Shown one piece after another: positions 10,616 through 45,163 of a stretch of DNA of 64,000 bases. How positions within the stretch are numbered: the first letter of the stretch is position 1; each line of letters begins with the position of its first letter. Both the position numbers and the translations under genes were made by a program. The stretch is from Bacteroidota bacterium (lineage in GTDB: Bacteria; Bacteroidota; Ignavibacteria; Kryptoniales; JAKASW01). The stretch spans positions 1 through 64,000 of the forward strand of contig JAJZVO010000023.1 of NCBI GenBank assembly GCA_021845665.1, in the 5' to 3' direction. The notes under the pieces were generated by a model. It had not been told where the DNA came from, did no database searches, and was given only the letters and a program-made list of their open reading frames with translations.

Positions 10616-10618
10616 CTT

Positions 10619-21928: not shown

Positions 21929-22011
21929 AGCGGCCACTACTACAAGCGCGCCCTTTTCTTGCTTGAAGTAATAGTAAGGTGTATCTTCAAGAAAACCGCG
22001 GATCCATTTCT

Positions 22012-27822: not shown

Positions 27823-28970
27823 AAGCGTTCATTGAGCCTTCCGACGTGCTCTTTTTCAGAGACGCACGCACTTTTAATCGCGGCGACGATCATATTGCGC
27901 GACTGATCTTTCCTCCATTGCCTATGCCATTCTACGGCGCGATCCGCAGTTCGATAATTGCAGAGAACTGGAACAACTTCAAAGAATTTGCAGGTGGGGC
28001 TAGTACAGGGGCGAGCAATGCCGTCGGGAGCAGCTCAAAACTCGGCACCATGTCTATTAGTCATTTCTCGCTTGCATCCAAGAAAGGGACAATTGTTGAA
28101 AGGCTCTACCCCATTCCGGGTGACCTGGTAGAAATCAAGGGAGGAAACGGCGCGAAGTTCCTGGTACTTTCGCCAAGAAAGATCCCTGCCGGGACCAAGA
28201 CAAATTTGCCTTCACCTGTGGACACGTGCGTTCTGGGACATGGAAGCGTTGGGCTTGAGGAGGCAAGGGGCTTTCTGAACACCCAGGGCCTTTCTAAATA
28301 CCTAGAGGGCAAAGAGATTACCGAGGACGACATCGTGAAGGAGGACGAAGTCTTCAGACGAGAATACAGGGTTGGCATTGCCAGAAGCAAAGAAACCGGC
28401 GTCGCTAAGGAGGGAATGCTATATAGTGCAGAGTTTGCGAGGCTCAACAAAAGTCACCGAGGCCAGGCAAGCTCGATCGGGTTCTTGCTTGAAATAAACG
28501 GCGAAGACGGCCTCCTAAAACCACGAAATGACAAGCCGAGAATACTCCGACTCGGCGGCGAGACTCGGACTGCCTATCTCGAAACGGAATTCAGTGAAGC
28601 ACCCGCCCCCGTATCAACTTCAAAAGTCCCGCGATTCAAATCTACCCTTCTCACTCCGGCGGTCTTCACTAATGGTTGGATTCCCGATGGAATCGATGCG
28701 ATCAGTGGAGAGGGGATTTTGAATGGGCACAGAGTAAGACTTGTCTCAGCAGCTGTTAATCGGCATGTCCCAGTCGGTGGGTGGGATATAGCGGCGCGGA
28801 GATCCAAGACAACGAAACGGGCAGTGCCGCAGGGAAGCGTGTATTATTTTGAGCTTCTTGACTCCACAACAATAGAGACGCCGCAGTTTTATTTCCCGCT
28901 TTGCAGGGACGAGTATTATTCCAAACAGGGCTTCGGCCTATCAATCATAGGAGACTGGAACTATGTATGA
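27819..28970 (+). CDS. cmr3: Cmr3, type III-B RAMP subunit
   Basis: 383 residues. PSDVLFFRDARTFNRGDDHI, RLIFPPLPMPFYGAIRSS and the C-terminal GFGLSIIGDWNYV are characteristic of Cmr3, the Csm4-like subunit that binds the crRNA 5' handle and contacts Cas10. The start overlaps the cmr2 stop and its own stop overlaps cmr4, so stoichiometric production is likely. No unusual features. Confidence 0.92.
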   Translation: MKAFIEPSDVLFFRDARTFNRGDDHIARLIFPPLPMPFYGAIRSSIIAENWNNFKEFAGGASTGASNAVGSSSKLGTMSISHFSLASKKGTIVERLYPIPGDLVEIKGGNGAKFLVLSPRKIPAGTKTNLPSPVDTCVLGHGSVGLEEARGFLNTQGLSKYLEGKEITEDDIVKEDEVFRREYRVGIARSKETGVAKEGMLYSAEFARLNKSHRGQASSIGFLLEINGEDGLLKPRNDKPRILRLGGETRTAYLETEFSEAPAPVSTSKVPRFKSTLLTPAVFTNGWIPDGIDAISGEGILNGHRVRLVSAAVNRHVPVGGWDIAARRSKTTKRAVPQGSVYYFELLDSTTIETPQFYFPLCRDEYYSKQGFGLSIIGDWNYV

Positions 28971-29877
28971 GCAAACCTTATTAGTTAGCCTTTACGCAGA
29001 AACCTCGCTTCATGTTGGAAGTGGTTCAAGCTTCGGAGTAATTGATCTTCCGATCCAGCGAGAAAAATACACGGATTTCCCGATGTGTGCCGCCAGTAGC
29101 CTGAAGGGAGCTGTAAGAGAATGGTTTGAAATCAAAGGAAAAGAAAAAGAGGATGGCATCACGCAGGATGATATCAACATCGTTTTCGGACCGAAAGACG
29201 GAAGCGATTTCGCCTCTTGCGTTGCTTTTGGCGACGCGCGTGTCCTCTTGTTCCCTGTTCGATCTGCCAAAGGAGTCTTCGCGTGGATAACATGCCCCAT
29301 GGTATTTAGCCGCTTTCTGATCGAACTTCATCGAGCTGGGTTCAAAGACATCCCAAAGCCACCCGACCAGGACGGTGGGAAGATCGGGGTCGAGGTTAAG
29401 ACCCAGGTCGTCCTTGCAGGCAATAAGATCTTGCTTGAAGAAAGCATTTTCGATATTTCAGAAAGAATATCCAGAGAGATGGAGGGGTTAGGAAAGTGGG
29501 TTTCGGACAACCTCTTCCCGAAGGGAGATGAATATAAATTTTGGAGAGACAGTGTAGCTTCCAGGTTGGTAGTTTTGCCGGACGATGACTTCACATACTT
29601 TGTTAAGCACTCCACCGAAGTCAACGCCAGAGTAAAGCTGAGTGACAAAAAGACAACCGAGGATGGAGGCAATCTATTCTATGAAGAGAATTTGCCGCCG
29701 GAAAGTATTCTATATGCTTCCATCTTTGCTTCACATCCTCATAGCGATGGTGGAAAGAGTCTACCTGATGCCTCGAGTGCAGCGACATTCATAAAGAAAC
29801 TCGGCGGAAAGAGGATGCAGCTTGGCGGCGATGAGACTGTCGGTCGCGGAATAATTAACGTCAGAATGCTGGGATAG
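28963..29877 (+). CDS. cmr4: Cmr4, backbone RNase subunit
   Basis: 304 residues, the usual size. The start of the fold (SLYAETSLHVGSGSSFGVIDLPIQRE) contains Asp28 in the loop equivalent to the catalytic aspartate that cuts target RNA at 6-nt intervals. CAASSLKGAVREWF is the conserved G-rich helix entry. The subunit repeats along the crRNA in the Cmr filament. The catalytic residue is present, so target RNA cleavage is expected. Confidence 0.93.
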   Translation: MYEQTLLVSLYAETSLHVGSGSSFGVIDLPIQREKYTDFPMCAASSLKGAVREWFEIKGKEKEDGITQDDINIVFGPKDGSDFASCVAFGDARVLLFPVRSAKGVFAWITCPMVFSRFLIELHRAGFKDIPKPPDQDGGKIGVEVKTQVVLAGNKILLEESIFDISERISREMEGLGKWVSDNLFPKGDEYKFWRDSVASRLVVLPDDDFTYFVKHSTEVNARVKLSDKKTTEDGGNLFYEENLPPESILYASIFASHPHSDGGKSLPDASSAATFIKKLGGKRMQLGGDETVGRGIINVRMLG

Positions 29878-29886
29878 GAGGCTCAC

Positions 29887-30279
29887 ATGAGTAAGGATCT
29901 TGAAAAACTTCGCGCGAAGAAGGCATGGGATATTGTTTCAGAAATTAACCGGGGTGAGGCTGAGCTCAAAGAGAAATACTCACAGGAGGCCCAGGGATTT
30001 CCCGTCGACATCATCTCGAACGGACTGTTGCAGACTCTCGCCTTTTATAGATTGGGTGGGGATGACATAACAAAGAAGGCAAGACGTAAACTTGCCGGGC
30101 ACCTGGAAAATTGGCTTTTCTCGACTGGCGAAGATGGTCCCAATATTCCATTCAGCACAGGCACAGCGAACTCCGTCCACAAGTTGATAAGTTCATCTGG
30201 CGAAGTATATCGTCAAGCCACGCTGGAGTCTCTTGCTTTCCTGCAATGGCTCAAACGCTTCTCAAAGATGGAGGAGTAA
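29887..30279 (+). CDS. cmr5: Cmr5, small helical subunit
   Basis: 130 residues, entirely helical. RAKKAWDIVSEIN and PVDIISNGLLQTLAFYRLGG match the Cmr5 pattern. GGAGG lies about 6 bases before its ATG. The protein forms the minor filament that stacks on Cmr4 and stabilises target binding. It sits in the canonical position between cmr4 and cmr6. Confidence 0.9.
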   Translation: MSKDLEKLRAKKAWDIVSEINRGEAELKEKYSQEAQGFPVDIISNGLLQTLAFYRLGGDDITKKARRKLAGHLENWLFSTGEDGPNIPFSTGTANSVHKLISSSGEVYRQATLESLAFLQWLKRFSKMEE

Positions 30280-30283
30280 GGAA

Positions 30284-31348
30284 ATGGCTCAATACCTATT
30301 GCCTGATGAAACGAGAAATGCTCTAACTGGTGCAAATCTAAATTTGCAGGAGCTGAATCTTTCCCTTCTCTCTAATCTCTACCTCAAAGTCTGGACCGAG
30401 ACCGCCGGGAATTGGGAAATTACCACGGACAGCAAGGAAGGGGGTTTCAACGCCATGAAGAGCGTTTACCAAAACCCTTTTCTGGAGAGCGTGAGAAACA
30501 GAGCTGAAGCATCTCTGGGTGGTTTCAAACAAAAAAAGTCATTCTCCCTTAAGACCAGCTGGCGAATGGTAGTAGGACTCGGAGCTCCCAATCCTCTGGA
30601 GAGCTCCATGACACTTCATCCAGTCTACGGCTTCCCTTACATACCGGCAACCGCTGTGAAGGGCATCGCCAGAGCGTGGGCCGAGAAACATGCCCCAATA
30701 ACACCTGCTGATAGAAAACAAATACTTCTCGAGATATTCGGTTCTGAGGACAAGTATAGTAAGGACAGCGAGAACCAGCAGGTTGGCGGAATAATATTCT
30801 TCGATGCACTTCCCAACGGTTTTCCAAAATTTGAAATTGACGTTATGACACCTCATTACTCTCAATATTACACGAAGGGGGAAGTGCCAGGTGATTGGTA
30901 CAGTCCAGTGCCGATTAAATTCTTGACGGTGGACACGGGATCTGAGTTCACCTTCTCGCTGGCAGCATCCAGAAGGTTGGATTCATCACGTTCCGATGAG
31001 CTCTTGAACCATGCCGCAGCTTTTCTCGAAGAAGGTCTCGTTAATTTGGGAGTAGGCGCGAAGTCTAATGCAGGCTACGGCTACTTTCTAGATCAGTCAG
31101 GCAAGCCTTCATCTGCCGCAGGATCTTCGGTTGAACCGGACATTTTTCGCGGTCAACTGACGCGTGAAGCACAAGTACCTGCCCATGTAGTTAGAAGCGA
31201 TGCAGGCAAGATAACCGTCAGGCTGCACACCGAAACACCTAATGAGGCTACCTTTACATACGCAGCGGGTATCCAGGTCGGGAAATGGGTCTGGGTTAAG
31301 GTCACAAACCCAAAATCTCTTTCCGTGCAATTCATAAAGTTTATCTGA
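30284..31348 (+). CDS. cmr6: Cmr6, type III-B RAMP subunit
   Basis: 354 residues from the ATG at 30284, preceded by GAGGAGTAAGG; an in-frame start at 30233 lies inside cmr5. VVGLGAPNPLESSMTLHPVY, PYIPATAVKGIARAW and the C-terminal GAKSNAGYGYF are typical Cmr6 motifs. The protein ends about 100 residues after the last RAMP motif with a basic beta-rich tail (about 285-354), slightly longer than many homologues. It forms the crRNA 3'-end side of the filament with Cmr1. Confidence 0.92.
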   Translation: MAQYLLPDETRNALTGANLNLQELNLSLLSNLYLKVWTETAGNWEITTDSKEGGFNAMKSVYQNPFLESVRNRAEASLGGFKQKKSFSLKTSWRMVVGLGAPNPLESSMTLHPVYGFPYIPATAVKGIARAWAEKHAPITPADRKQILLEIFGSEDKYSKDSENQQVGGIIFFDALPNGFPKFEIDVMTPHYSQYYTKGEVPGDWYSPVPIKFLTVDTGSEFTFSLAASRRLDSSRSDELLNHAAAFLEEGLVNLGVGAKSNAGYGYFLDQSGKPSSAAGSSVEPDIFRGQLTREAQVPAHVVRSDAGKITVRLHTETPNEATFTYAAGIQVGKWVWVKVTNPKSLSVQFIKFI

Positions 31349-31381
31349 CTTCTCTCAAGAATTGCAGATTCCGAGTTTCGC

Positions 31382-32443
31382 TTGAATGCAAAGCAGCCAG
31401 CAGAATCGGCTATTCCTGATAATGGGAGCGCTGAGAATGACTTATTAGGCAAGGTACTCTCCTACGCTAAGCGTCTTCGCATCCTCGACCTTGGCTTTGA
31501 GATAGAATTCCTCTCCGATGTCGTCTTGCCAACTTACAAAGGCTCCACGCTCCACGGCGGGCTTGGCAGGGCTTTCCGAAAGCTCTACTGCACATGCGCA
31601 GAGCCGTTGCGGACACCGGATGAGAATGATAGCGAGGAGCAGTCCATCCATCACGAGGCAGAAGCCTGTCCTTATCATTTCATCTTCGAAACAAGAATCA
31701 ACGACAACGTCTTCAAGTTCCTGCGCAATGTCCCGAGCGTGCCGCACCCGTATTTGCTCGAACCGCCTCTCGACGAAAAGAAGGAATACATGGCAGGAGA
31801 AAGGCTGGCGTTCACCCTCAGGATTTTCGGTTCTGCCACAGGGTATGCGGTTAACATGATCGAAGCAGTTGCACTCTTCGGCAGACTCGGCGTGACCAGG
31901 GCAAGCGTTCACTTCAGGATTGTTCGGGTGACATCAATAGGCGCCGGAAGGAAACAGAATGTCATTTATGATGGCGCCTCGAACACCTATCTGGCGATTC
32001 CAAAACCCTATCGTTGGAAGCCCCGGGAAGAAAGCCCTCTATCTCACGAGTTGATGATCCGTTTTCTTTCACCGACTCGGCTTGTCAAGAGCGAACATTT
32101 ACAGGAGAACGTTGACTTCTTGATTATTTTGACCTCTCTCATCAGAAGGCTCGCGGCTCTCGCATACTACGCTGAAGGATTGAAGAACGCCGTGAAACTG
32201 ACCGAAGGAGTCAACATCTCCGCCAATAACGTTAGATTGATCAAACAGGACATCGATTGGAAAGCCTGGCGTCGGTATTCCAACCGGCAATCAACCGCCA
32301 TGCTGTTAGGGGGAGTGGTCGGAGAGTTGACTTTTGGAAACGTCACCGAGGATTTGCTGCTGTTGCTTGAATTCGGAAAGCTACTCCATCTTGGAAAGCA
32401 GACTACCTTTGGCCTGGGAAAATATGAAATCGCTCAGAAGTGA
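31382..32443 (+). CDS. cas6: Cas6, pre-crRNA processing endoribonuclease
   Basis: About 353 residues from a TTG at 31382; no ATG is available before the RAMP fold. LPTYKGSTLHGGLGRAFRKLYC opens the ferredoxin-like fold of the Cas6 group that has a cysteine-containing insertion (C-T-C-A...EACPYHFIFETR). The C-terminal glycine-rich loop is LHLGKQTTFGLGKYEI. It cuts the repeat RNA to leave an 8-nt 5' handle, here predicted to be ATGGAAAC. It overlaps cas2 by four bases, so the adaptation and processing genes follow cmr in one transcript. Confidence 0.9.
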   Translation: MNAKQPAESAIPDNGSAENDLLGKVLSYAKRLRILDLGFEIEFLSDVVLPTYKGSTLHGGLGRAFRKLYCTCAEPLRTPDENDSEEQSIHHEAEACPYHFIFETRINDNVFKFLRNVPSVPHPYLLEPPLDEKKEYMAGERLAFTLRIFGSATGYAVNMIEAVALFGRLGVTRASVHFRIVRVTSIGAGRKQNVIYDGASNTYLAIPKPYRWKPREESPLSHELMIRFLSPTRLVKSEHLQENVDFLIILTSLIRRLAALAYYAEGLKNAVKLTEGVNISANNVRLIKQDIDWKAWRRYSNRQSTAMLLGGVVGELTFGNVTEDLLLLLEFGKLLHLGKQTTFGLGKYEIAQK

Positions 32444-32721
32444 AACCGGAGCTGCTCGACTTTGTCGTCTCCTACGACATAACGGATAACAGAAAGAGAA
32501 AGAAGATAGCCGACATACTCGACGAGTATGGACACAGGGTTCAATACAGTGTCTTTGAAATCACCGTACCATCGAATGATTTCAGTAAGCTTCGTTCGCG
32601 ACTGATAAAACATCTTCGACAATCGACTGATACGATCAGGTATTATTCTCTCTGCCAGAAATGCGTCGCTAAGGTTTCATTTGACAGTGCCAAACGAAAA
32701 GGTGGTGAGAATAAACCCTGA
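32440..32721 (+). CDS. cas2: Cas2, adaptation protein
   Basis: 93 residues from a GTG that overlaps the cas6 stop. VVSYDITDNRKRKKIADILDE and HRVQYSVFE are the classic Cas2 ferredoxin-fold motifs, with the conserved Asp in SYDI. TIRYYSLCQKC is the C-terminal part. It forms the integration complex with Cas1. About 400 structured non-coding bases separate it from the RT-cas1 gene. Confidence 0.95.
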   Translation: MKPELLDFVVSYDITDNRKRKKIADILDEYGHRVQYSVFEITVPSNDFSKLRSRLIKHLRQSTDTIRYYSLCQKCVAKVSFDSAKRKGGENKP

Positions 32722-32859
32722 TTTGTCATTAGAAGAAGGATCGCAACGGAATGAATGCAAGTTCCAACTCCCTAACTGCAACTCCTTCGCCATCTTCCCC
32801 GAATAGAAGAAGCTGCGACACTCAGAATAACACTCTGAGAAAATATTAGTAAGGAAACG

Positions 32860-33055
32860 ACCTGAGAATATTCGACGAAAAGAAATTTGTGGAACGAAGC
32901 GTAAAGCGGAACATGCTGTTTGACCTCGACAAATCTCCGATTTGTCGAGGGAGTCTCATTTTCCGCAGCGAAGTGGAACAAATTCCAGTCGAATATTTTC
33001 CAGTCTTGACCCTTAGGTTCTGGAGCCTGCCCCGCCGTAAGCGGGGTGTCAAGAC
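32860..33055. ncRNA. long imperfect hairpin plus second nested hairpin upstream of RT-cas1
   Basis: The core is a perfect 12-bp stem, CCTCGACAAATC (32924-32935) paired with 32939-32950 across a 3-base loop. Further matching blocks extend the arms outward: GCGGAA (32906-32911) with 32961-32966, AATTTGT (32884-32890) with 32978-32984, and AATATTCGAC (32867-32876) with 32988-32997. A second hairpin follows: GTCTTGAC (33003-33010) pairs with 33048-33055, enclosing CCCCGC-CGTAA-GCGGGG (33030-33046). No ORF is supported in 32722-33126. It could be a structured RNA, a palindromic mobile element or a regulator of RT-cas1; the type given is provisional. Confidence 0.4.
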
Positions 33056-33126
33056 GAAAGAACAGAAAATCAAAACTTATTCACTGTGCAGCGGTTCTAA
33101 CACCAATTCCCGGATAAAGTCACTCG

Positions 33127-35409
33127 ATGAATCAGCAGTACAAATTTGAATGGGCGGAACAATCCTTGCGTTACGCGTTTCAAGGTATAGCTGCCAAAGG
33201 CTCCCGCGGAGGCATCGACAGAGTAACCGCAGAAGCCTATTCAAAGAACCTGCACTCAAATCTGTCAGCGCTGCTCAAACGCTTGCAGGAGGGGACTTAT
33301 GTTCCGTCACCCTATGAAAAGATATCCATACCAAAAGATGGCGGGTCGGTACGTATTCTCAGCCTCGCGACGGTCGAGGACAAAATAGTCCAGAGCATTG
33401 TAATGCATTATCTCGATGATACCTTCAAAGGCGTTTTTCTTGATTGCTCCTATGCTTACCGGGAAAACAAAGGCCATAAGAAAGCTATCGGCAGAGTCGA
33501 GCATTCACTCAGGGCTGCCCGCTCAGAGATGACTGCCGATGTAGACAATTTCTTTGACTCGATCGATCATTCAATCCTCGAATCCCAGCTTGCAGAAAGA
33601 ATCAAGGATGACCGGCTGCTCACACTAATCCGATTATGGATCACCACCGATTCTATCCATGATTCAAGACTCCAGAAAAGAAACATCGGCATTCCGCAGG
33701 GCGGACCCGTCTCGCCCATACTCTCGAACATCTACCTTTCTCCATTCGACAGGTTCATGGTCGGCCTCGGCAGGGCTTATATCCGCTATGCGGATAATTT
33801 CATTGTCTTCTCCGAAAACAAAAACGAGCTGGTCGAGATATTTAACCGGGCAGTCGATTACCTTCGCAGAAACCTCAGGCTCAGGCTCAACGAAGCAACT
33901 CCCGTGATATGTACTGAGGAGGAAGGCTTCGATTTTCTCGGCATCCATTTTAAAAACGGGAAGAGGACCATTGCCGACAGTAAGTTCACAAAGGCACTCA
34001 AGGAACCGGACGAGCTGAGGAGGAGACATCGTAAGGATAGCCTGGAGCGCTTGCGCGACCACTGGAACAAGATGGTACAATCATGGAGATTCTACTATGG
34101 GCCGTTTGACGTTGCAGAGCAGTTCTCATCACTAAGGCAGGAATTGCAAAAGAACCTCAGGCAGGAAATACTCTACCGGGCACAGCATGAAGAGATTCCC
34201 GAAGCAAAACTCGGAGAGATCATTTGTTCATTTGACTCCCTGACTGCGAACCCGAATGAGAACCGTGACTTTGCCGGAAGGATACTCGGTGAGATTAAGG
34301 AATTCCGAAAAGGGCGGGCCGACGGGAAGGAGGTACAGATTGCCCGAACGAGAGCCGCAAAAGTGAGGAAATTTATTCACCTCCACGTTGCCGAACACAA
34401 TCTCCTTGTGTCAACCCCGGGTTTCTTCATCGGAAGGTCGCAGGGAAAGATCCAGGTGAGGAAAGGACAGGAAGTTGTGACCGAACAACCCCTGCGAAGC
34501 ATTCACAATCTGATGCTTTCCGATCATGGCATCGGCATCTCCACCGATGTGATTGCCGAATGCGTTGAGAAGAAAACCCAGATTTTTATCGTGGACTCGA
34601 TCGGACATTACAGGGCGCTCATTATAGGAGACCCGTGGCCTCAGTTTAGCATCACTCTTTCCCAGGTCAATGCAGCCAACAGCTGGCTGGGCTCCCAGTG
34701 CGCGTTCAATTTCGTCGATGCGAAGATCAGGAATCAGGTCAACCTTCTTCGTTACTACGCCAAGTATCATTACGATGCAAACAGAAACTACGCTGAGGTC
34801 ATCTCCAAAGAAATCCCACGGATGGAGAAGGTGCTGACCGACATTTCCGCGCTGAATAGGAAAGGGTCTCTTCCAGGTGAGTACAATTCGGCAGTTTTCG
34901 GTCTTGAGGGACAGGCGGCCATTTCCTACTGGGCATGCATCGCCGCATTAATTGGAGACGAATGGGCCTTTACAAAGAGAGAACATCAGAACGCCGCAAA
35001 TATTGTTAACAAGATGCTCAATTACGGTTACGGCGTCCTGTCGTCGAAAATCCTCATCGCGATTATTTCGAGCGGATTGAACCCAATGATCAGCTTCCTG
35101 CATTCTGCCCAGGAAGGGAGACCATCTTTGGTCTTCGATGTCATGGAGCAATTCCGCCCCACTTGTGTGGACAGGGTCGTGGTCAGCATGTTGCTTCGAA
35201 AGGAAAGAGTCGAGAAAGACGGTGAGAAACTCCCGATCGAGCTGAGGAAAAGGATTGCCAGCGGGGTGCTGACGAAGATGGGCACTGAGTTCCAGTACCG
35301 CGGGAAAAGGCAGACAATCGAGGAAATACTGGCTAAACAGCTCGGCGATGTAGTCGAATTCCTCCAGGGGAAAACAAGAAACTTCAGGGCATTCCTCTCG
35401 AGATGGTGA
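33127..35409 (+). CDS. RT-cas1: reverse transcriptase-Cas1 fusion
   Basis: 760 residues. The N-terminal 330 or so are a group II intron-like RT: IDRVTAEAY, YEKISIPKDGGSVRILSL, the motif A aspartates in ADVDNFFDSIDH (about 137-148), GIPQGGPVSPILSNIY (188-203), and the active-site box YADN (221-224), where most RTs have YADD. The C-terminal 350 residues are a full Cas1: HNLLVSTPGFFIG, the catalytic Glu region VFGLEGQAAISYW, and SFLHSAQEGRPSLVFDVMEQFRP with the catalytic His and acidic residues. Fusions of this type let type III systems acquire spacers from RNA. There is no N-terminal Cas6 domain; cas6 is a separate gene. Confidence 0.95.
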   Translation: MNQQYKFEWAEQSLRYAFQGIAAKGSRGGIDRVTAEAYSKNLHSNLSALLKRLQEGTYVPSPYEKISIPKDGGSVRILSLATVEDKIVQSIVMHYLDDTFKGVFLDCSYAYRENKGHKKAIGRVEHSLRAARSEMTADVDNFFDSIDHSILESQLAERIKDDRLLTLIRLWITTDSIHDSRLQKRNIGIPQGGPVSPILSNIYLSPFDRFMVGLGRAYIRYADNFIVFSENKNELVEIFNRAVDYLRRNLRLRLNEATPVICTEEEGFDFLGIHFKNGKRTIADSKFTKALKEPDELRRRHRKDSLERLRDHWNKMVQSWRFYYGPFDVAEQFSSLRQELQKNLRQEILYRAQHEEIPEAKLGEIICSFDSLTANPNENRDFAGRILGEIKEFRKGRADGKEVQIARTRAAKVRKFIHLHVAEHNLLVSTPGFFIGRSQGKIQVRKGQEVVTEQPLRSIHNLMLSDHGIGISTDVIAECVEKKTQIFIVDSIGHYRALIIGDPWPQFSITLSQVNAANSWLGSQCAFNFVDAKIRNQVNLLRYYAKYHYDANRNYAEVISKEIPRMEKVLTDISALNRKGSLPGEYNSAVFGLEGQAAISYWACIAALIGDEWAFTKREHQNAANIVNKMLNYGYGVLSSKILIAIISSGLNPMISFLHSAQEGRPSLVFDVMEQFRPTCVDRVVVSMLLRKERVEKDGEKLPIELRKRIASGVLTKMGTEFQYRGKRQTIEEILAKQLGDVVEFLQGKTRNFRAFLSRW

Positions 35410-35820: not shown

Positions 35821-35834
35821 CTTTGAAAACCTGA
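35652..35834 (+). CDS. doubtful small ORF inside the leader
   Basis: 60 codons with GGAGGG about 6 bases before the ATG, a good ribosome-binding site. The product is basic, contains three cysteines and runs into the first CRISPR repeat before stopping. It resembles nothing known. It might be a fortuitous frame in the leader; the ribosome-binding site is the only positive evidence. Confidence 0.2.
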   Translation: MVKTTLRSSRVQISAKCEWSCERNEYGYVNCSDGASSAARGYLQRGDEIHNLLRKRSLKT

Positions 35835-37717
35835 CTTATGGTTGAAGGATGGAAACCAAAACAGATTTTAATGTTTCGCTGTCAAATGTTTCTTTGAAAA
35901 CCTGACTTATGGTTGAAGGATGGAAACAATCTCCACGAGACATTACCACACTAACTATCTTGTCCTTTGAAAACCTGACTTATGGTTGAAGGATGGAAAC
36001 AAATATGGAACAGTTTTTGCGGCGGTATACGCAAACCACTTTGAAAACCTGACTTATGGTTGAAGGATGGAAACGACCGTCAAAGTCCCCAATTAATCCG
36101 CGGTCGTGCATGTCTTTGAAAACCTGACTTATGGTTGAAGGATGGAAACCCTGGAGCCAATAGAAATAGGTTCCGGAAGGAAGACGCGCTTTGAAAACCT
36201 GACTTATGGTTGAAGGATGGAAACAGTCCGGACAGTCGTCGGGACACTGCTCGCAAGGGCACTTTGAAAACCTGACTTATGGTTGAAGGATGGAAACTGT
36301 CCTCCTCAATGTAGGAGGTGTGAAGTATCTGTATCTCTTTGAAAACCTGACTTATGGTTGAAGGATGGAAACTGTCCACGGCGCTCCAAGTAAGGCCGCC
36401 ATCGGTACTTTGAAAACCTGACTTATGGTTGAAGGATGGAAACAGAGATGTGATGTCCGCATTCCAATCGGTGGTATCTGGCTTTGAAAACCTGACTTAT
36501 GGTTGAAGGATGGAAACTCTGACTCAACGCGAAGGTTGTTGGAACAGGCGGGTTATCCTTTGAAAACCTGACTTATGGTTGAAGGATGGAAACGCGCAGA
36601 AGTGATGGTTCACGTCCGAACAAACGGCGACCTTTGAAAACCTGACTTATGGTTGAAGGATGGAAACGCCGGAGTTACTACACGTTTCGAGATACACCAC
36701 TGAATCGCTTTGAAAACCTGACTTATGGTTGAAGGATGGAAACGGGACATAATGTCTCGCACCTCGTGCTCGGTCACATCACCCTTTGAAAACCTGACTT
36801 ATGGTTGAAGGATGGAAACGAACTTTCCGGGCTATCAGTGTAACCACTAAAAAGGACCCTTTGAAAACCTGACTTATGGTTGAAGGATGGAAACAGATTG
36901 GTGAAAATCAGTTGCGGGGAACTTGCCGCTTTGAAAACCTGACTTATGGTTGAAGGATGGAAACAGTAGTACTGAGACCAATAAATATTTCCTACAGCTT
37001 CTGGCTTTGAAAACCTGACTTATGGTTGAAGGATGGAAACTCTGCGAGTTTCCGTCTTGCGGTAGTAGATGTAACCTACTTTGAAAACCTGACTTATGGT
37101 TGAAGGATGGAAACAGATAACCACCATAATCGCCGTTTGAATAACTAATATTCCCTTTGAAAACCTGACTTATGGTTGAAGGATGGAAACAAGCTGAACG
37201 TTGTGGCGACGGGCGGGTTATCAACGACCTTTGAAAACCTGACTTATGGTTGAAGGATGGAAACTATACAGCTCTTCCGCTGTCCCCTCGGGGAATTCCT
37301 CGGGCTTTGAAAACCTGACTTATGGTTGAAGGATGGAAACGCTTTTTTCGAGCTTTCTTCCAACCCCATGTCGTACTTTGAAAACCTGACTTATGGTTGA
37401 AGGATGGAAACTCTGTTCTTCAGAAGGTTTTCCATCGAAACACTTCCGTTTTCTTTGAAAACCTGACTTATGGTTGAAGGATGGAAACAATTTCTGGTCG
37501 ATAGGAGACCGACTGAACGGCTGCCTCGAGAGGCTTTGAAAACCTGACTTATGGTTGAAGGATGGAAACGTGGTCGCAGCGGTAGGTGGAATTTGGATCC
37601 ACCGCTTTGAAAACCTGACTTATGGTTGAAGGATGGAAACGAGAATTTGGCTGAACCTTCCCCGGTCGGTACCAATAAGACCTTTGAAAACCTGACTTAT
37701 GGTTGAAGGATGGAAAT
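35821..37717 (+). CRISPR. type III CRISPR array, 26 repeats and 25 spacers
   Basis: The 36-base repeat begins CTTTGAAAACCTGACTTATG and ends GTTGAAGGATGGAAAC. Repeat starts are at 35821, 35892, 35965, 36039, 36114, 36189, 36262, 36337, 36408, 36482, 36558, 36632, 36708, 36784, 36859, 36929, 37005, 37079, 37155, 37229, 37305, 37376, 37453, 37534, 37605 and 37682. Spacers are 34-45 bases, mostly 35-41. The repeats looked uniform except the last, which ends GGAAAT, marking the distal end. The expected crRNA 5' handle is ATGGAAAC. Spacers at 36518-36557 and 37191-37228 target related coding sequences. Confidence 0.98.
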
Positions 37718-37896: not shown

Positions 37897-38367
37897 ATGG
37901 ACGAGTTCTTCGAACACTTGGAGTATGATCTGACAAGCCGGCTCTTGCATCAGCTTAGATTTGAAAAGAAGTTACAGAAGAGGTTGCGTTCGCGGAGAAA
38001 CGCGACCGAAGAGACGGATGATGCGTATTCTGACTATAGTTTAGGGACGATCTGGGTCGTTGACGACCACAAGGTGCATTTTCGCGGTCGGCGCGACGAA
38101 AAATCATATCATGACGGAAGGCGGCCAGGGGTAGTTATCGTCTCTCCCTGCAAAGAGACGCGTTACGAGGTCTGCTGGATCCCGGGATCATCCAAAATCG
38201 CGGGGCGACCTATAGCCCGTATAGTGGTCAGCGAGAACTCGGCCTATCTCTTGTGCGAAAAAGAGTGGTATCGTCCTCAGACTCTCGAATCGAAGAGAGG
38301 AGACTTGCCCCCCGACAAGCTTCTCGAACTGCGGCACAAATGGGATGAACTGGAATGCGATGAGTAA
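37897..38367 (+). CDS. PemK/MazF-like protein
   Basis: About 156 residues from the ATG at 37897, with GAGG about 10 bases upstream; a TTG at 37888 is in frame. After an N-terminal charged helical segment (about 1-45) comes a PemK/MazF-type SH3-like barrel: SLGTIWVVDD, RRPGVVIVSP, IARIVVSENSAYLL and a C-terminal helix LPPDKLLELRHKWDEL. MazF-family proteins are usually mRNA interferases, but a homologue serves as the sigma-binding partner in the CalpL-CalpT-CalpS type III signalling module. It overlaps the sigma-like gene by eight bases and is the first gene after the CRISPR array. Confidence 0.65.
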   Translation: MDEFFEHLEYDLTSRLLHQLRFEKKLQKRLRSRRNATEETDDAYSDYSLGTIWVVDDHKVHFRGRRDEKSYHDGRRPGVVIVSPCKETRYEVCWIPGSSKIAGRPIARIVVSENSAYLLCEKEWYRPQTLESKRGDLPPDKLLELRHKWDELECDE

Positions 38368-39364
38368 CCGCTTTCAGGATAACCTGGCAGAACTTGTAAC
38401 TCTTATCCGCAAGCTCCGAAATGAATCTACTCTGAAGCCGAAAGAGCACGCGAGTGTTAACAAGCGGTTTGATCGAGTTCTTGCCGAGTTCGTTCACTCT
38501 ATGGCGTCCTCATACTCAACTTACCCCTATACATTAGATGAGTTCAAGGATCTCCTGGGAGAAGTTCAAAAGAACATCGCAACAAATCTTCTTAGAAAAG
38601 ATGCCTTTGAAAATGGAGATACCATCGACGGAGCCCCCGACGATCGGATTAAAGGATGGATAAAAACAACCACGAGTAACGCGCTCAGGAACGACCCCTC
38701 CCCTCAAAAGAGAGACTATCGTTACCTGTTGACGACAATCAATAACACTCTGAAGAGGATGGAAAATTCAGGAGAATTTGACTCTTCTAAAATTGTGGAA
38801 TATCGTTTTGAAGAGTTGAGACGAAAGATTCTTAATGAGATTGACGTGTCAGAGTCCAAAGGGAAAAGCCTTGCCAGGAAGGTCGCAGAAATTGCGAGGA
38901 GGATACTAAAATTGGCCGGCGGTATGATCGAGCGACGCGATTTGAATGATTTGGTTAGCGAGATCACTGGCATTTACAAACCCGTCAAGGAGAGTCCTGG
39001 AGACGAGTCGAACAAGAATGTTGTCGATGATATTCCATCGGTTGACGATTTACCAAAAGAGATAATCATTGACATTGAGTCTGCAACCGAACGCCTTCTG
39101 ACACGCCTCGAAGGGCGGAAGGATCCACGATTGTTGCCAATACTTTGCTATAAATTTGTTCATGAGTTGACTTATAGGGAGATTCAATCGAGGACTAAGA
39201 TACCGAAGCAGACTCAGGATTTTCTTCTTAAACGAAGGATACTACCAGATCTCTACAACGCGATCAAGAATTGCAGCAGGGATCCCGACTATAGAATCGT
39301 TGCAAAGTTTCGTGAAAAGGTTTTAGAAGGTTTGAGCAAAAGGGGGATACAATGCGAAGCCTGA
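38360..39364 (+). CDS. sigma-factor-like protein
   Basis: About 334 residues from the ATG at 38360, overlapping the previous stop. Residues about 45-115 resemble sigma region 2 (LDEFKDLLGEVQKNIATNL, RIKGWIKTTTSNALRND). Near the C-terminus, LLPILCYKFVHELTYREIQSRTKIPKQTQDFLLKRRILPDL reads as a region 4-type helix-turn-helix. The two parts are separated by a long charged, helical linker, so it is larger than an ECF sigma factor (about 180-200 aa). It would redirect RNA polymerase once freed from an inhibitor. The next gene starts 13 bases before its stop, the usual arrangement for sigma/anti-sigma pairs. The sigma call is from motif resemblance. Confidence 0.6.
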   Translation: MSNRFQDNLAELVTLIRKLRNESTLKPKEHASVNKRFDRVLAEFVHSMASSYSTYPYTLDEFKDLLGEVQKNIATNLLRKDAFENGDTIDGAPDDRIKGWIKTTTSNALRNDPSPQKRDYRYLLTTINNTLKRMENSGEFDSSKIVEYRFEELRRKILNEIDVSESKGKSLARKVAEIARRILKLAGGMIERRDLNDLVSEITGIYKPVKESPGDESNKNVVDDIPSVDDLPKEIIIDIESATERLLTRLEGRKDPRLLPILCYKFVHELTYREIQSRTKIPKQTQDFLLKRRILPDLYNAIKNCSRDPDYRIVAKFREKVLEGLSKRGIQCEA

Positions 39365-40545
39365 GCCAGAGAAAGGGCAAATCGCAACGTCTCCCGGAGA
39401 TTCCGGACAGATATGAGATTGCCGAGTATGTTCAGGGGAGACTTTCAAAAAGCCGGCGAAAGCAGATAAAAGAGTTGCTTGAGTCTGATGACCCTGTTGC
39501 AATAGGTGTGAAGATTGACTTTGAAGAAATAAAGAGCCGTATTAAAGCCATGCCCTTCAGACCGCTTTCTAGTAATGCAACCGGTGTGCTTCAAGCTCGC
39601 ATGCAGGCGGTCCTCAGACATTCAGGGATGCCAGCCCCGGGGGAAATATGGTCACTTCAGTTGCAGAAATCTAATTCCGGGATCTCCAGAGATCGATCCG
39701 TTTTGATCTTTCATATCCATGGCGGATTCGCGCGAGTTGCACCAGTGACTAAGGAAACCGATTTTGCCGGTCCGCGTGATATTATTGTGCGCGACCGATC
39801 CTATGCCTTCGTGCCTTTCATGCTCGAGTTGTTCGCGTCATTCTGGACTGATTTGAGTCTGCTAACTGATCAAGGCGAATTCGAAGCCCGTGTTTCAGAG
39901 AAGACTCTTTCTGCAGCACGTAGAGCGGACAGGGGCATCTATAGCAATTTGCCTCGCGGCGTCAGACGCGGCTCCGTCCAGGAAATATCAGACATTGAAG
40001 AGTTCCATGAGGAATGGCGAGAAGGAGAGCGGATGCTCTTTGAAAAATTCAAAACAACACCGTACGTGCTGGAAGAATTCGAAGCGGCTGATGTCGAGAA
40101 GGTAGCTGAACCACAGTCGATACCCATCCCTGTCTCTTTCATTTCGTACCAACAGCCCACGCAATACGTGTACCGTCTCGCCGCGGCTGACCAGACATTC
40201 ACGGTCTCTGAATTCCAATTCTGGGAAAAGGAAAGGGGCCTTTCTGGCCAAATGCGTCGCCTCATTCTCCAGGCCCCATCCTTTGAAGTGCGTGTCTCGA
40301 TAGTCGATGGCCACCTCTTCTTGGTTGCTGAACGAGCCGACAAGTCACCGAAGATTGTATCAGACGTTTCCTTGTCCAGTGGTGAAACAAACATTCTCAC
40401 TACGGAGAACTCCGTTCAGTTCTCAACATCCCAGAGAGTTCATCTTCATTTTGATGTTGATCCTGCACTCCCTCTCACAGGGCGGTGGATTTTGCGTTTC
40501 AGCCTTGATGATAAGGGGTATCAGAACGAGGTCGAATTCAAATGA
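39352..40545 (+). CDS. PemK/MazF-core protein, candidate anti-sigma factor
   Basis: 397 residues. The N-terminal 55 residues (RYEIAEYVQGRLSKSRRKQIKELLES) look like the helical sigma-binding segment of cytoplasmic anti-sigma factors, without the zinc ligands. Residues about 95-145 have a PemK/MazF-like barrel: GEIWSLQLQKSNSGISRDRSVLIF, FARVAPVTKETDFAGPRDIIV. The remainder is an unrecognised beta-rich region with an Ig-like end (TGRWILRFSLDDKGYQNEVEF). Position between a sigma-like gene and a Lon-like protease gene mirrors CalpS-CalpT-CalpL, where a MazF homologue holds the sigma factor until cleaved. The anti-sigma role is an inference. Confidence 0.55.
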   Translation: MRSLSQRKGKSQRLPEIPDRYEIAEYVQGRLSKSRRKQIKELLESDDPVAIGVKIDFEEIKSRIKAMPFRPLSSNATGVLQARMQAVLRHSGMPAPGEIWSLQLQKSNSGISRDRSVLIFHIHGGFARVAPVTKETDFAGPRDIIVRDRSYAFVPFMLELFASFWTDLSLLTDQGEFEARVSEKTLSAARRADRGIYSNLPRGVRRGSVQEISDIEEFHEEWREGERMLFEKFKTTPYVLEEFEAADVEKVAEPQSIPIPVSFISYQQPTQYVYRLAAADQTFTVSEFQFWEKERGLSGQMRRLILQAPSFEVRVSIVDGHLFLVAERADKSPKIVSDVSLSSGETNILTTENSVQFSTSQRVHLHFDVDPALPLTGRWILRFSLDDKGYQNEVEFK

Positions 40546-41714
40546 ACATCGTGCGACGCGAGCAGGAAGCACAAGGTCACCTTGAGCTGGGCAACTATCG
40601 ACAAGCACAGGAAATCTACAAAGAACTTGCAGAGAACGAAAGCGATCTTAGTTCGAAGAACCACTTCAACGATTCTGCAAATGCTGCCGAGGCGTTTGCC
40701 ACAGAATTCACTGGCTTGCGTGTGGGAGAAGCCCTATGTCCTATCGTCGACAAGAGGACAGGTCATGGTTGTCTCTGTGTAGTCCAAACGGGTAAAGTGC
40801 GTGACTTACATGGCCGCCTCGTTTCGCAGTCCATCGGGACCTCATTTGAACTGTTTCCTCAGCTGATGTTGAATTGGACGCCGGTAACGGAACTAATTGC
40901 AACTTTCCTTTCTCCTCTGGTAAGTTCGTTCGGGAGATTATCGGTACTCAACTGGGGTTGGGATTGTTGGAAGCCTTCAGTTCGCAAATTGCCACACCGC
41001 TCTAATGAGAGAGCCAAGGATCCACAAGGTGAGTCATCTCAACTGGCCATGGCATTGGCGATTATATCTGAAATTACCTCCAGGCCCATCGGTGCGGGAT
41101 TTGCATTCACAGGAAGACTTGTAACGGAGGGAGGAAAGGTTTGCGTAGAACGGGTTGAAGACATTGCTGAGAAAGTCAGAGTATCCCTGAAGGAACTGCC
41201 TCAGGTAGGAACGATATTTGTTCCTCATTCAAATGAGCGTGAGGCACTTCAGGAAGCTCGGCAGATCGGAAAAGAAGCGCAGACAAGAGCCGTGTCAACT
41301 CTCGAAGAGGTTATCGAAGTTGTTTTCCCGGGCTTCAATGCGGATTTCTTGCGGATGGTTGAGGACAGGCACATCGGATCTGATTGGCTGTATCTGGACC
41401 TAAGAGAGAATTCTGAACATGTTCTGCAGTTCGAGTCTCTCCGAAACGGTTCCGCTTTGGTCGATCATAAAACAATTGGGTCTATTCAATTGCCCTCGCT
41501 TCCTGATGGGACTCGGGGGCTAATCTTAAATGGCCCGTTGCCTATTTTTCTAACATCCACGCTGACTCCAAGATATATTAGACACTATCAGATTTTTTTC
41601 GCGGTGAGTCTTGGCAAGGACCGGAAGTACGCGGTCGTCACCGCCGGACATGCGCTCGCGCCTCGACAAGTTGGAGATGTTGTTTCATTCGAGCCGTCTC
41701 CGGAACAAGACTGA
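40542..41714 (+). CDS. TPR-Lon-like protease with Csx3-like C-terminal domain
   Basis: 390 residues; the ATG overlaps the preceding stop. Residues 1-35 look like one TPR repeat. About 160-245 align with the Lon proteolytic domain: GESSQLAMALAIISEIT matches GPSAG..., FAFTGRL matches the MTGE strand, and EDIAEKV matches KEKL. The catalytic dyad would be Ser165 and Lys211, both present, with a three-residue insertion compared with E. coli Lon. Residues about 315-390 (LPSLPDGTRGLILNGPLPIF, FFAVSLGKDRKYAVVTAGHA, VGDVVSFEP) resemble Csx3, a cyclic tetra-adenylate-binding protein. There is no AAA module and no SAVED domain. It is probably a ligand-controlled protease. Confidence 0.65.
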   Translation: MNIVRREQEAQGHLELGNYRQAQEIYKELAENESDLSSKNHFNDSANAAEAFATEFTGLRVGEALCPIVDKRTGHGCLCVVQTGKVRDLHGRLVSQSIGTSFELFPQLMLNWTPVTELIATFLSPLVSSFGRLSVLNWGWDCWKPSVRKLPHRSNERAKDPQGESSQLAMALAIISEITSRPIGAGFAFTGRLVTEGGKVCVERVEDIAEKVRVSLKELPQVGTIFVPHSNEREALQEARQIGKEAQTRAVSTLEEVIEVVFPGFNADFLRMVEDRHIGSDWLYLDLRENSEHVLQFESLRNGSALVDHKTIGSIQLPSLPDGTRGLILNGPLPIFLTSTLTPRYIRHYQIFFAVSLGKDRKYAVVTAGHALAPRQVGDVVSFEPSPEQD

Positions 41715-41721: not shown

Positions 41722-43041
41722 ATGAAAGAAAACGTCCTCTTTTCTACCCTGGGTGTCACCGCCCCTGTAATCTCAGAAACAATCAACTTGCTTGAGGCCG
41801 AGGGAAAATCGATTAACAAACTTGTAGTCGTTCACACCTCCTTCAAAGACGTTCTTCACAAACAAACTCCATCAGGGAAAGATATAGGGCTCGTGGCACT
41901 GAAGGAGTATATCGGAAGTAAACGCGGCAACATCGCGGTTGAATCAATAGACTTGGGGATTGAAGACATTCTCACGGAAAATGATAACACAAAGGTCCTC
42001 CACGTTTTGATGAATGCCATCGAGGAGGAAAGAAATAAGCAAAACACTGTCTATGTAAGCATCGCTGGCGGGCGAAAAACGATGTCCGCCGCCGCCTTGT
42101 TTGCCGCTTATGCAGTAGGCTGTGACGGAATATATCATGTCCTGGTTAATGGCAGAGAAGAGGAACTTACAGACGCATATGGTTTCGATGTTCCACTGGA
42201 TAAGCTTACTCTGATTAGAATTCCTCCAGTCAATCTTTCACTGATGTTGAAGACGGTGATTGAGGAGATTGACACAAACAACCTCTTTCGCGGAGATATC
42301 TCTGCATATCTGCAGGATAAGGAGAGAGTTGAAGAAGTATTCAGTTATCTAAACGACGGATTACGGGCGTCACTGGATCTGCGTAAACTTCACGAGGAAC
42401 ATAACCGGCGTTATTCGCTTTACGAGAGAATGAACCAAACCGTTCTCGCTATCCTGCAAGGCCGGATCCGGAAATCCGCGGTTATGAAACCGCAATATGA
42501 GAGCAGGGTGAAAACCTTCGAAAGCTTCATACGGAAAATTGCCGAGAAACGGGGCAGAGGAGAAACGTTCCAAGATCCGTTCGAAAGGATACATGACCTA
42601 TCGGCGGTCAGAATTGTCACGTACTTTCAAGAGGATCTGGATACCCTCGAAAAGATGATCGATGGCATGATTACCGAACGGGTGGATTTTGAACCTTATC
42701 CCGATCCCGACAAGGCAAAAAAGATTAAGAAGCCGGAGGTGGTTGGATATACCGGAATTCATTATCTGGTCGGACTTCGCCCCGATCGGACAGCTCTCCT
42801 GGAATATGAAAGGCTGTCCGGATTATGGTGTGAAATTCAGCTCAAGACAATTTTCGATCATGCCTGGTCCCAGGTCGATCATCGTCTCCGGTTCAAGTCA
42901 GAAGAATTCCATGCGATGTCGAAAGAACAAAAGGACGAAGTCCTGGCGGTGTTCGCAGATGCGGCCAGGTTGTTGAACGAAAGCAAAGCCGTTTTCAGTA
43001 CTCTGCGCGAAACTTACGAGCATTTCAGAAAAGAGACCTAG
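41722..43041 (+). CDS. CARF-RelA/SpoT alarmone synthetase fusion
   Basis: About 439 residues from the ATG at 41722; an upstream frame at 41611 lies inside the protease gene. The N-terminal half is a CARF fold of the NE0113-like group: LFSTLGVTAPVISETINLL and VSIAGGRKTMSAAALFAAY (about 112-130). The C-terminal half is a (p)ppGpp synthetase domain with all key motifs: SRVKTFESF (R262, K264), IHDLSAVRI (D292), GYTGIHYLV (Y343, H347) and EIQLKTIFDHAWSQVDH (E371, Q373). A helical linker (about 175-250) joins them. No HD hydrolase domain is present. Binding of cyclic oligoadenylate to CARF would switch on alarmone synthesis, or tRNA pyrophosphorylation as in toxSAS enzymes, and so cause growth arrest. 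Confidence 0.85.
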   Translation: MKENVLFSTLGVTAPVISETINLLEAEGKSINKLVVVHTSFKDVLHKQTPSGKDIGLVALKEYIGSKRGNIAVESIDLGIEDILTENDNTKVLHVLMNAIEEERNKQNTVYVSIAGGRKTMSAAALFAAYAVGCDGIYHVLVNGREEELTDAYGFDVPLDKLTLIRIPPVNLSLMLKTVIEEIDTNNLFRGDISAYLQDKERVEEVFSYLNDGLRASLDLRKLHEEHNRRYSLYERMNQTVLAILQGRIRKSAVMKPQYESRVKTFESFIRKIAEKRGRGETFQDPFERIHDLSAVRIVTYFQEDLDTLEKMIDGMITERVDFEPYPDPDKAKKIKKPEVVGYTGIHYLVGLRPDRTALLEYERLSGLWCEIQLKTIFDHAWSQVDHRLRFKSEEFHAMSKEQKDEVLAVFADAARLLNESKAVFSTLRETYEHFRKET

Positions 43042-43128: not shown

Positions 43129-43521
43129 ATGCTTATCAACCTCTCAAATCACCCGCTAACAGCATGGGATAACTCGCAGCGACATGCCGCACAAGAAGAG
43201 TACGGTCTGTTAGCCGACCTTCCGTTCCCACCTGTTCCAGCTAACGCCGGGTTGCAGGAAGTCCAACAGAAAGTGGAAGAATACATTTCGCTCTGTCAGG
43301 CTATGTTTGACGATTACTTCCAGACCGGAGGAATTGCTGACAAGAATCGCAACGCAATACATGTTATGGGGGAATTCACTTTCGTCTATTTGTTTGTTGC
43401 CCGTTGCCGGAAGTTGTCGATTCCGTGTGTCGCGTCCACCACGGATCGCATTGTTGTCGATAATACGGACGGTTCCAAGACAACCCGCTTCAACTTCTTG
43501 CAATTCAGGCCTTACTTCTAA
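43129..43521 (+). CDS. small CRISPR-associated protein, candidate ring nuclease
   Basis: 130 residues. MLINLSNHPLTAWDNSQ, YGLLADLPFPPVPANA and the C-terminal VVDNTDGSKTTRFNFLQF give a Rossmann-like pattern seen in short proteins encoded next to type III effector genes, some considered candidates for cyclic-oligoadenylate ring nucleases (Csx15-like). The resemblance is from memory and no catalytic residues are established. It lies between two CARF effector genes and ends one base before the next ATG, so it could limit the lifetime of the signal. Confidence 0.45.
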   Translation: MLINLSNHPLTAWDNSQRHAAQEEYGLLADLPFPPVPANAGLQEVQQKVEEYISLCQAMFDDYFQTGGIADKNRNAIHVMGEFTFVYLFVARCRKLSIPCVASTTDRIVVDNTDGSKTTRFNFLQFRPYF

Positions 43522-43522: not shown

Positions 43523-45163
43523 ATGTCCCAACCAAGAAGAAATATTCTCGTTGCCGTTGTAGGTATGACCCCGCAAGTGGTCACGGAAACACTCTATGCA
43601 CTGGAGGTGGAACAGCGTATAAAAGTGTCAGAGACTTATGTTATCACTACCGAAGAGGGCAAGAAGAATATCCTGGGTGACAAAGGCCTACATTCTCTTG
43701 CTGATGAAATCGCAAGACTATCACAAATATATGAATGTCAGCTTCCAACTTTTTCCGTTGAGAAGAACTGCATCACCGTCGAAGATGAAAGCTTTCAGAT
43801 TGCTGACATCGATTCGGCCGAGAAGAGTCTCGCCTTCTTCAACGCGATGACAGAGTTCGTTCGCAATTTGTCCGCTGATTCCAACTCAGCGATACATTGC
43901 TCCATAGCAGGCGGTCGTAAAACAATGGGCCTCGCTGCCGGCTATGCTATGTCGCTTTTCGGCCGCCCTCAAGACACACTGTCTCATGTCTTGGCTAGCA
44001 AGGAACTTGAAGACAGTAAGAAATTCTTCCCAGAGCCAGGCCATGATGCCGAAAAGGTTGTCCTTGTCGAGATACCTTTCATCCGGCTGAGGGACTTCAT
44101 TGACATAGAGTTGTCAAAAGGATCATACTCTGATTTTGTAAGTCTTGCTCAAGCTAGGGTTGATATTCGAACCGGTGATTTCGGTGCACGATTCGGTATC
44201 ATAGGCCACTCCCCGAAAATGATTGATGTTTTTTCGAGAATAGAGGATTACTCGGAATCGGATTACCCCATCTTGATTATCGGAGAGACTGGGACAGGAA
44301 AAGAACTCGTCGCACGCGCAATTCACCAAAACAGCAATCGAGCTGAATCAGAATTTGTCGCGGTGAATTGTGGGTCAGTTTCTCACGACCTTCTTGAGAG
44401 TGAACTATTCGGTCACGTCAAAGGTGCATTTACGGGAGCAGGTCAAGATAGAGCTGGCTTTTTCGAAACAGCTGACAATGGCACGATCTTCCTTGATGAG
44501 GTAACCGAGACTGATTCTAATTTTCAGAAAAATCTTCTTCGCGTTCTTCAGGAAGGAGAATACCGCCGAGTTGGCGAGACTCTCCTCAGGAAAACAAATG
44601 CACGGGTCATCGCAGCAACTAATCGAGTTGATCTAAGAAGAGAGATCACCGGTGGGGATTTCCGCCAAGACCTTTACTACCGGCTCGATGTCTTGCGCAT
44701 TTCGATCCCACCATTGAGAGAGAGAAAAGAGGATATACCCGAACTGGTCGATTACTTCCTCATGAAGCACTCTAAAAAGGTAGGGAAAAGTTTTGACGGT
44801 CTATCCCCAGTTTTTCAGGACGCACTCCAATCTTATGATTATCCTGGAAATGTTCGCGAATTAGAGAACAACATCATCCAGACGGTTGTTGGCACTGGCG
44901 GCAAGACCATTACCGACAAATATCTTGGCCAAGAGATTAAAGATGCGTGGTCGAGGATCTTAGCTACCATAGTTATTGAAGAACCTCCCGAGACCATTCT
45001 GCCATTTGAAGATATGAAGAAACATTGGCTGATCCACGTACTTCGCATAACTCGCGGCAATCGCTCGAAGGCTGCTCAGTTAATGCAACTCGACTATGAC
45101 ACTGTTCTAAACTGGATTAAGAAGTACGGAATAGAAGAGCACCATTACCGAAATACTCGGTAA
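43523..45163 (+). CDS. CARF-sigma54 AAA+ enhancer-binding transcription activator
   Basis: About 546 residues from the ATG at 43523. The N-terminus is an NE0113-type CARF domain (ILVAVVGMTPQVVTETLYAL; HCSIAGGRKTMGLAAGYAM). From about 230 a complete sigma54-interaction AAA+ domain follows: Walker A GETGTGKE (about 254), the sigma54-contact loop GAFTGA (about 301), Walker B GTIFLDEV, FRQDLYYRLDVLRISIPPLRERKEDI, and YPGNVRELEN. The C-terminal Fis-type helix-turn-helix is NRSKAAQLMQLDYDTVLNWIKKYGI. The layout matches RtcR, a CARF-containing sigma54 activator, but with a CRISPR-type CARF. Ligand binding should allow it to remodel sigma54-RNA polymerase at target promoters. Confidence 0.9.
   Translation: MSQPRRNILVAVVGMTPQVVTETLYALEVEQRIKVSETYVITTEEGKKNILGDKGLHSLADEIARLSQIYECQLPTFSVEKNCITVEDESFQIADIDSAEKSLAFFNAMTEFVRNLSADSNSAIHCSIAGGRKTMGLAAGYAMSLFGRPQDTLSHVLASKELEDSKKFFPEPGHDAEKVVLVEIPFIRLRDFIDIELSKGSYSDFVSLAQARVDIRTGDFGARFGIIGHSPKMIDVFSRIEDYSESDYPILIIGETGTGKELVARAIHQNSNRAESEFVAVNCGSVSHDLLESELFGHVKGAFTGAGQDRAGFFETADNGTIFLDEVTETDSNFQKNLLRVLQEGEYRRVGETLLRKTNARVIAATNRVDLRREITGGDFRQDLYYRLDVLRISIPPLRERKEDIPELVDYFLMKHSKKVGKSFDGLSPVFQDALQSYDYPGNVRELENNIIQTVVGTGGKTITDKYLGQEIKDAWSRILATIVIEEPPETILPFEDMKKHWLIHVLRITRGNRSKAAQLMQLDYDTVLNWIKKYGIEEHHYRNTR

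Follow-up and report, generated by a model that had tools for sequence, protein, structure and literature searches.

A probable Calp-like signalling module of a type III CRISPR system, with a candidate sensor derived from Csx3, in a Bacteroidota genome

We analysed a 64,000-nucleotide stretch of DNA from a Bacteroidota bacterium of the class Ignavibacteria (contig JAJZVO010000023.1 of assembly GCA_021845665.1, positions 1 to 64,000 of the forward strand; hereafter the window), in which a four-gene module starts about 180 bp after the end of a CRISPR array. The genes encode, in order, a small MazF/PemK-family protein, a sigma-like protein that resembles CalpS, a protein that resembles the MazF-like putative anti-sigma factor CalpT, and a Lon-family protease with a degenerate Csx3-like domain at its C-terminus (Table 1). 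Each gene overlaps its neighbour by 4 to 13 nucleotides. An initial annotation of this DNA had described the second and third open reading frames as an overlapping pair; both were found on the plus strand as described, with a shared 13 nucleotides, and the sigma-like frame has the proposed length of about 334 amino acids when read from the ATG at 38360 (an alternative ATG at 38345 would give 339 amino acids). Beyond that pair, our analysis revealed the adjacent Lon protease, whose C-terminus is Csx3-derived and not SAVED, and the extra MazF-family gene upstream. Taking the evidence together, we consider it probable, though by no means certain, that these genes carry out Calp-like signalling for a type III CRISPR system and use a sensor derived from Csx3.

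Table 1. The four-gene module, its predicted domains and the genes around it (positions in the window)
Feature	Position	Strand	Basis
Small MazF/PemK-family protein, 156 amino acids, module gene 1	37897..38367	+	Family profile, hhalign, residue conservation
Sigma-like (CalpS-like) protein, 334 amino acids	38360..39364	+	ECF region 2 and region 4 matches, AlphaFold model
Sigma region 2-like domain, residues ~24-108	38429..38683	+	hhalign against ECF profile, 89%, p 2.1e-6
Extra helical middle domain, residues ~113-205	38696..38974	+	hhalign against ECF profile, 0.4%, p 0.14; helices predicted
Sigma region 4-like helix-turn-helix, residues ~265-300	39152..39259	+	hhalign against ECF profile, 80.7%, p 1.3e-5
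CalpT-like protein, 397 amino acids	39352..40545	+	MazF-matching core
MazF-like core of CalpT-like protein, residues ~89-196	39616..39939	+	hhalign against MazF, 95.9%, p 5.7e-9
Lon-Csx3 fusion protease, 390 amino acids, CalpL-like	40542..41714	+	Pfam, family profile against PDB
Lon (S16) protease domain	40698..41363	+	Structure match, invariant residues
Degenerate Csx3-like domain, residues 307-381, proposed messenger sensor	41460..41684	+	C-terminal family profile
Type III-B cmr operon	24800..35409	+	Library matches; Cmr5 and Cas2 by inspection
CRISPR array, 26 repeats of ~36 nucleotides	35821..37717	+	
CARF - RelA/SpoT synthetase fusion, next downstream of the module	41722..43041	+	Pfam Cas_NE0113 1.9e-22, RelA_SpoT 3.8e-17
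Csx20-like ring nuclease, probable off-switch	43129..43521	+	NCBIfam CAS_Csx20, E 5e-8, below curated cut-off
CARF - sigma54 activator (RtcR-like)	43526..45163	+	Pfam Sigma54_activat 1.5e-64, Cas_NE0113 9e-32

The last gene of the module encodes a fusion of two recognisable parts. Searched alone, the protein matched the Pfam families Lon_C (5.2e-6) and Cas_csx3 (1.4e-3), and a profile built from 12 Lon-Csx3 relatives retrieved Lon (1.9e-16) and Csx3 (5.8e-4) from the PDB with separate parts of the protein. The predicted structure aligned with Lon at a Z score of 21 and a root-mean-square deviation of 2.7 over 196 residues, and the catalytic dyad of Ser165 and Lys211 was invariant in 12 out of 12 Lon-Csx3 proteins. 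For the C-terminal domain, a profile of this family gave Csx3 structures as its sole significant matches in the PDB (E = 3e-5). Csx3 structures were still the top matches after the window sequence and two others had been removed, at E = 0.04; the link to Csx3 is therefore distant and depends in good part on the sequence from the window, yet a single family is indicated. The domain of the window scored 22.5 bits in a genome-wide search, over the Pfam cut-off, whereas it fell below the cut-off in a whole-protein hmmscan. A 'TAGHAL' motif in this protein was considered as trypsin-like and dropped, since it sits in the Csx3-like region.

In Archaeoglobus Csx3, residues H57, H60, H80, D69 and R71 have been tied to catalysis (PMC7371418). 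These positions are not conserved in the Lon-Csx3 family: H57 was found in none of the 12 proteins, D69 in two, R71 and H80 in one each, and H60 in zero to five depending on the alignment. The glycine at Csx3 position 45, which makes a main-chain contact to the ligand, was retained in 7 of 12. Such a residue pattern would suit a sensor that had evolved from a ring nuclease, and the domain may bind cyclic oligoadenylate (cOA). The loss of catalytic residues also argues that the domain is very unlikely to be still a ring nuclease that makes the protein a self-limiting effector like CalpL, as does the presence of a separate Csx20-like ring nuclease gene two genes downstream; similarity to the Csx3 family speaks for such an activity, as does the finding that the SAVED domain of CalpL also degrades the cOA cyclic tetra-adenylate (cA4) and is thus a ring nuclease (PMC11417357). 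SAVED itself had no match at E ≤ 1 in the Lon-Csx3 protein and none in the genome of the window. We therefore did not class the module as CalpL, and read it as Calp-like in its working with a different sensor.

The same loss of residues, together with the weak similarity of individual proteins to Csx3, would also fit a domain that binds protein instead of a messenger. One paper places Csx3 in the STAS fold, which anti-sigma factor antagonists also adopt (PMC7159879), and another describes Crn3 as similar to the domains of such antagonists (PMC12409355). The C-terminal domain might then dock the CalpT-like protein onto the protease, with the signal entering by another route. We regard this as unlikely, considering that the PDB profile search retrieved Csx3 and no STAS or SpoIIAA protein, that the fusion contains no other recognised sensor domain, and that the module co-occurs with Cas10, as described below. 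We infer instead that the degenerate Csx3 domain replaces SAVED as the putative cOA sensor.

The motifs of the sigma-like and CalpT-like proteins lie at the edge of detection, because single-sequence scans against Pfam and NCBIfam gave nothing significant or usable for either protein; PDB profile searches with the two families also produced no matches. Detection needed profile–profile comparison with families from the same genome or class, and our reference profile for extracytoplasmic function (ECF) sigma factors was made from the ECF-size sigma factors of the window's own genome. This comparison bore out the region 2-like and region 4-like motifs that the initial annotation had proposed (Table 1), with unrelated control domains reaching 0.5% or less against the same profile. 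What had been described as a large charged linker proved to be mostly the predicted helical middle domain, followed by a short acidic disordered linker (residues ~205-230). With this additional domain the protein departs from the ECF layout, in which a short linker connects region 2 to region 4 and no further domain is present. We rejected primary-sigma region 3 as an identity for the middle domain, which matched neither the ECF profile nor a profile of larger sigma factors. The best PDB matches of an AlphaFold model of the protein were sigma factors, although these matches were weak (best E = 8.5e-3, Z about 7). A sigma fragment beside the module genes of a partial locus, L044, passed the Pfam Sigma70_r4 cut-off (E = 2.2e-6), and its hhalign score against the sigma-like family was weak.

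The PemK core that had been assigned to the CalpT-like protein was likewise upheld by profile–profile comparison, in which controls reached 0.2%, and the relative of this protein at locus L041 matched PemK_toxin at E = 1e-3. The core is flanked by a helical N-terminus, whose resemblance to an anti-sigma domain was judged by eye, and by a beta-rich C-terminal domain. Inspection of the alignment did not reveal the catalytic Arg-Pro motif of MazF in this core. The protein is encoded in a single copy in the window's genome. The family profile of the small protein that precedes the sigma-like protein matched MazF structures at E = 2e-8 and the MazF family by hhalign (95.8%, p 7.5e-9), and both the catalytic Arg-Pro of MazF (R76-P77) and the Ser/Thr at position 98 were retained in all ten relatives. 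A direct hhalign comparison of the CalpT-like and small MazF families gave a weak score. The small protein may give the module a second output or may serve the CalpT-like core as a structural partner.

We found relatives of the module through whole-genome searches in the same class and phylum, supplemented by reads of the regions. The order sigma, CalpT-like, Lon-Csx3 is common to the window and 11 divergent Bacteroidota relatives (L041, L042, L043, L045, L046, L078, L079, L080, L081, L082 and L084); L044 and L047 are partial, ending at contig ends. A small MazF-like gene leads the module in 10 of these 11 relatives, that of L084 being assigned by position and inspection, and none was recognised in L041. 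The Lon-Csx3 proteins of the aligned set share 16-26% identity with that of the window. Scanning a genome collection with a narrow alignment returned three loci, all of them Bacteroidota that had already been found; the named records are Bacteroidota metagenome-assembled genomes, one of which is labelled Melioribacter roseus. No real relative of the module was found in a plasmid collection. Across 296 genomes of the phylum, a search for the SAVED family yielded six SAVED proteins, with no Lon-SAVED among those of suitable size. Proteins encoded beside the module in L080 (14150-15178, CARF-like by eye) and L081 (4247-5773) may be further effectors, and a CARF-like protein adjoins the module in L084.

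The small gene stands ahead of the sigma gene at nearly every locus, and its product matches MazF and retains the MazF catalytic residues, which raises the question of whether the module is primarily a toxin system. The effector would then be the small MazF protein, kept in check by the MazF-like CalpT protein until the protease frees it as an mRNA interferase, and the sigma-like protein would be a DNA-binding autoregulator. We find this quite unlikely: the sigma-like protein has both region 2 and region 4, which an autoregulator would not need, and genome G184, which carries L041, has the other three genes with no recognised small gene.

Consistent with a Calp-like module that serves CRISPR signalling, its genes are associated with type III systems. 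Among the 14 genomes in which we found all or part of the module, 12 contained Cas10; the figure for sampled same-class genomes lacking the module was 6 of 76 (Fisher p 5e-9, a value that ignores the relatedness of the genomes). Conversely, 4 of the 10 Cas10 genomes in the class sample, including the window's own, carry the whole module or a part. The module genes adjoin a III-A cas10 in L042, III-B cmr genes in the window and L082, cas1/cas2 in L046 and L080, a reverse transcriptase–Cas1 gene (RT-Cas1) in the window, L079 and L084, and csx20 in the window, L047 and L081. The neighbouring Cas families were profile-checked for some of these loci and assigned by eye for others.

Several observations weigh against the reading that we favour. 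The Csx3 Pfam model was matched individually at E < 1 by only 2 of the 12 Lon proteins, and the AlphaFold confidence of the Csx3-like domain was modest, with ten-residue means mostly between 40 and 78. CalpL was absent from the PDB matches of the Lon profile, so common descent with CalpL is at best a possibility. The proposal, made in the initial annotation, that the sigma-like and CalpT-like pair follows the logic of CalpS and CalpT is supported in part, by the identity of the domains, the conserved gene order and the Lon-family protease next to them; it was weighed through domains and gene order, and this holds for the Calp assignment as a whole. Finally, two sister genomes, G184 and G373, have the module without a detectable Cas10; in these genomes it may respond to a different signal or persist as a relic. 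In both (L041 and L043) it occupies the same chromosomal site, between serS/MerR-like and priA-like genes. These two genomes would fit a general stress cassette of sigma factor, anti-sigma factor and protease that often lands in defence islands and is no CRISPR effector, which we rate the least probable of the readings considered here, given the skewed distribution of Cas10 and the fact that most loci directly adjoin cas genes or csx20.

We therefore return to a Calp-like module, in which the four genes most likely convert a CRISPR alarm molecule into a change in transcription. Cas10/Cmr2, which contains a GGDD motif in the window, would recognise phage RNA and produce a cyclic oligoadenylate, probably cA4; this messenger is indicated by the Csx20-like ring nuclease encoded downstream, as Csx20 degrades cA4 (PMC12409355). 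The degenerate Csx3 domain with which the Lon protease ends would bind this messenger. In authentic Csx3, cA4 is sandwiched between dimers, and the H60A mutant, which has no catalytic activity, forms fibres with cA4 (PMC7371418); this suggests that messenger binding would assemble the protease and thereby activate its Ser165/Lys211 site. The activated protease would then cut the CalpT-like putative anti-sigma factor and release the ECF-like sigma factor bound to it, which would redirect RNA polymerase to defence genes, with the Csx20-like ring nuclease as the probable off-switch. We infer messenger binding, polymerisation, CalpT-like cleavage, anti-sigma function, sigma activity and a role for the small MazF protein, and model the steps on CalpL, CalpT and CalpS (PMC11417357, PMC12751052). 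A bolder version, in which the catalytically lost Csx3 fold is a dedicated cOA sensor that polymerises Lon, and one cut frees both the sigma factor and a MazF-type RNase from a MazF-like inhibitor, seems to us possible but doubtful.

Among known systems, the closest in design is CalpL/CalpT/CalpS, the Lon-SAVED system of Sulfurihydrogenibium (PMC11417357, PMC12751052). In both, a protease of the Lon family ends in a sensor domain (a proposed one in the window), and genes for a sigma factor of the ECF type and for a putative, MazF-like anti-sigma factor accompany it next to type III CRISPR; the likeness that we describe is one of domains and arrangement, and homology to CalpL, CalpT and CalpS themselves may or may not underlie it. 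In contrast to Calp, the proposed sensor of the window is Csx3-like where that of CalpL is SAVED, a further domain lies in the middle of the sigma factor, and the module includes an additional MazF-family gene. The Csx3/Crn3 ring nucleases (PMC7371418) share a sequence profile with the C-terminal domain, and their mode of binding cA4 is the one invoked above. However, the catalytic residues of the window's domain are not conserved, and it is fused to a protease, whereas Csx3 stands alone or is fused to an AAA ATPase. The type III-E Craspase, Csx29/Csx30 (PMC10028731), is likewise a CRISPR-activated protease tied to a sigma factor pathway, but its protease, Csx29, is of the caspase-like TPR-CHAT type and is switched through RNA-guided binding, whereas the protease of the window is of the Lon family with a proposed cOA sensor. 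The MazF/PemK toxins share their fold with the small protein, which retains their catalytic motif, and with the CalpT-like core, which differs from them in having no Arg-Pro motif (by inspection) and in its extra N- and C-terminal domains.

The surroundings of the module are rich in other CRISPR-associated genes. Upstream, the cmr operon encodes Cmr1, Cas10/Cmr2, Cmr3, Cmr4, a probable Cmr5 and Cmr6, together with a weak Cas6 match, a Cas2-like open reading frame and RT-Cas1. The last of these (33127-35409) joins Cas1 to a reverse transcriptase of the group II intron type and shows a weak match to a maturase domain. A CARF protein of the APE2256/TIGR02619 type with a coiled-coil-like C-terminus lies upstream of the operon (21979-23487). 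Downstream of the module, the synthetase motifs of the CARF-RelA/SpoT protein appear plausible by eye, and the CARF-sigma54 AAA activator is a possible second transcriptional output of the same CRISPR locus; such CARF fusions have precedents in the RelA-type and FleQ-type CARF proteins listed previously (PMC10910872). Further away, a row of large genes (2128-13966) resembles by eye another defence system, with a large ATPase, a PglZ-like open reading frame (4778-5794), a very large methyltransferase-like open reading frame (7568-10615) and an SNF2-like helicase (11108-13966).

A 2025 survey lists CARF and SAVED as almost the only cOA sensors, and we met no Lon-Csx3 fusion in the open-licence literature that we searched. 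On the bolder version given above, cOA effectors would have a third sensor fold, next to CARF and SAVED. Should the module be cOA-responsive, it would be a case of a ring nuclease turned sensor and would show that the transcriptional logic of Calp can be built with a different sensor. The share of Cas10 genomes in the class sample that carry the whole module or a part indicates that it is no rarity in this class. In the window, host transcription would receive the CRISPR signal directly through this module, whose neighbours are a CARF-alarmone synthetase fusion and a CARF-sigma54 activator, and which genes are switched on by CRISPR signalling would thus become a testable question in these bacteria.

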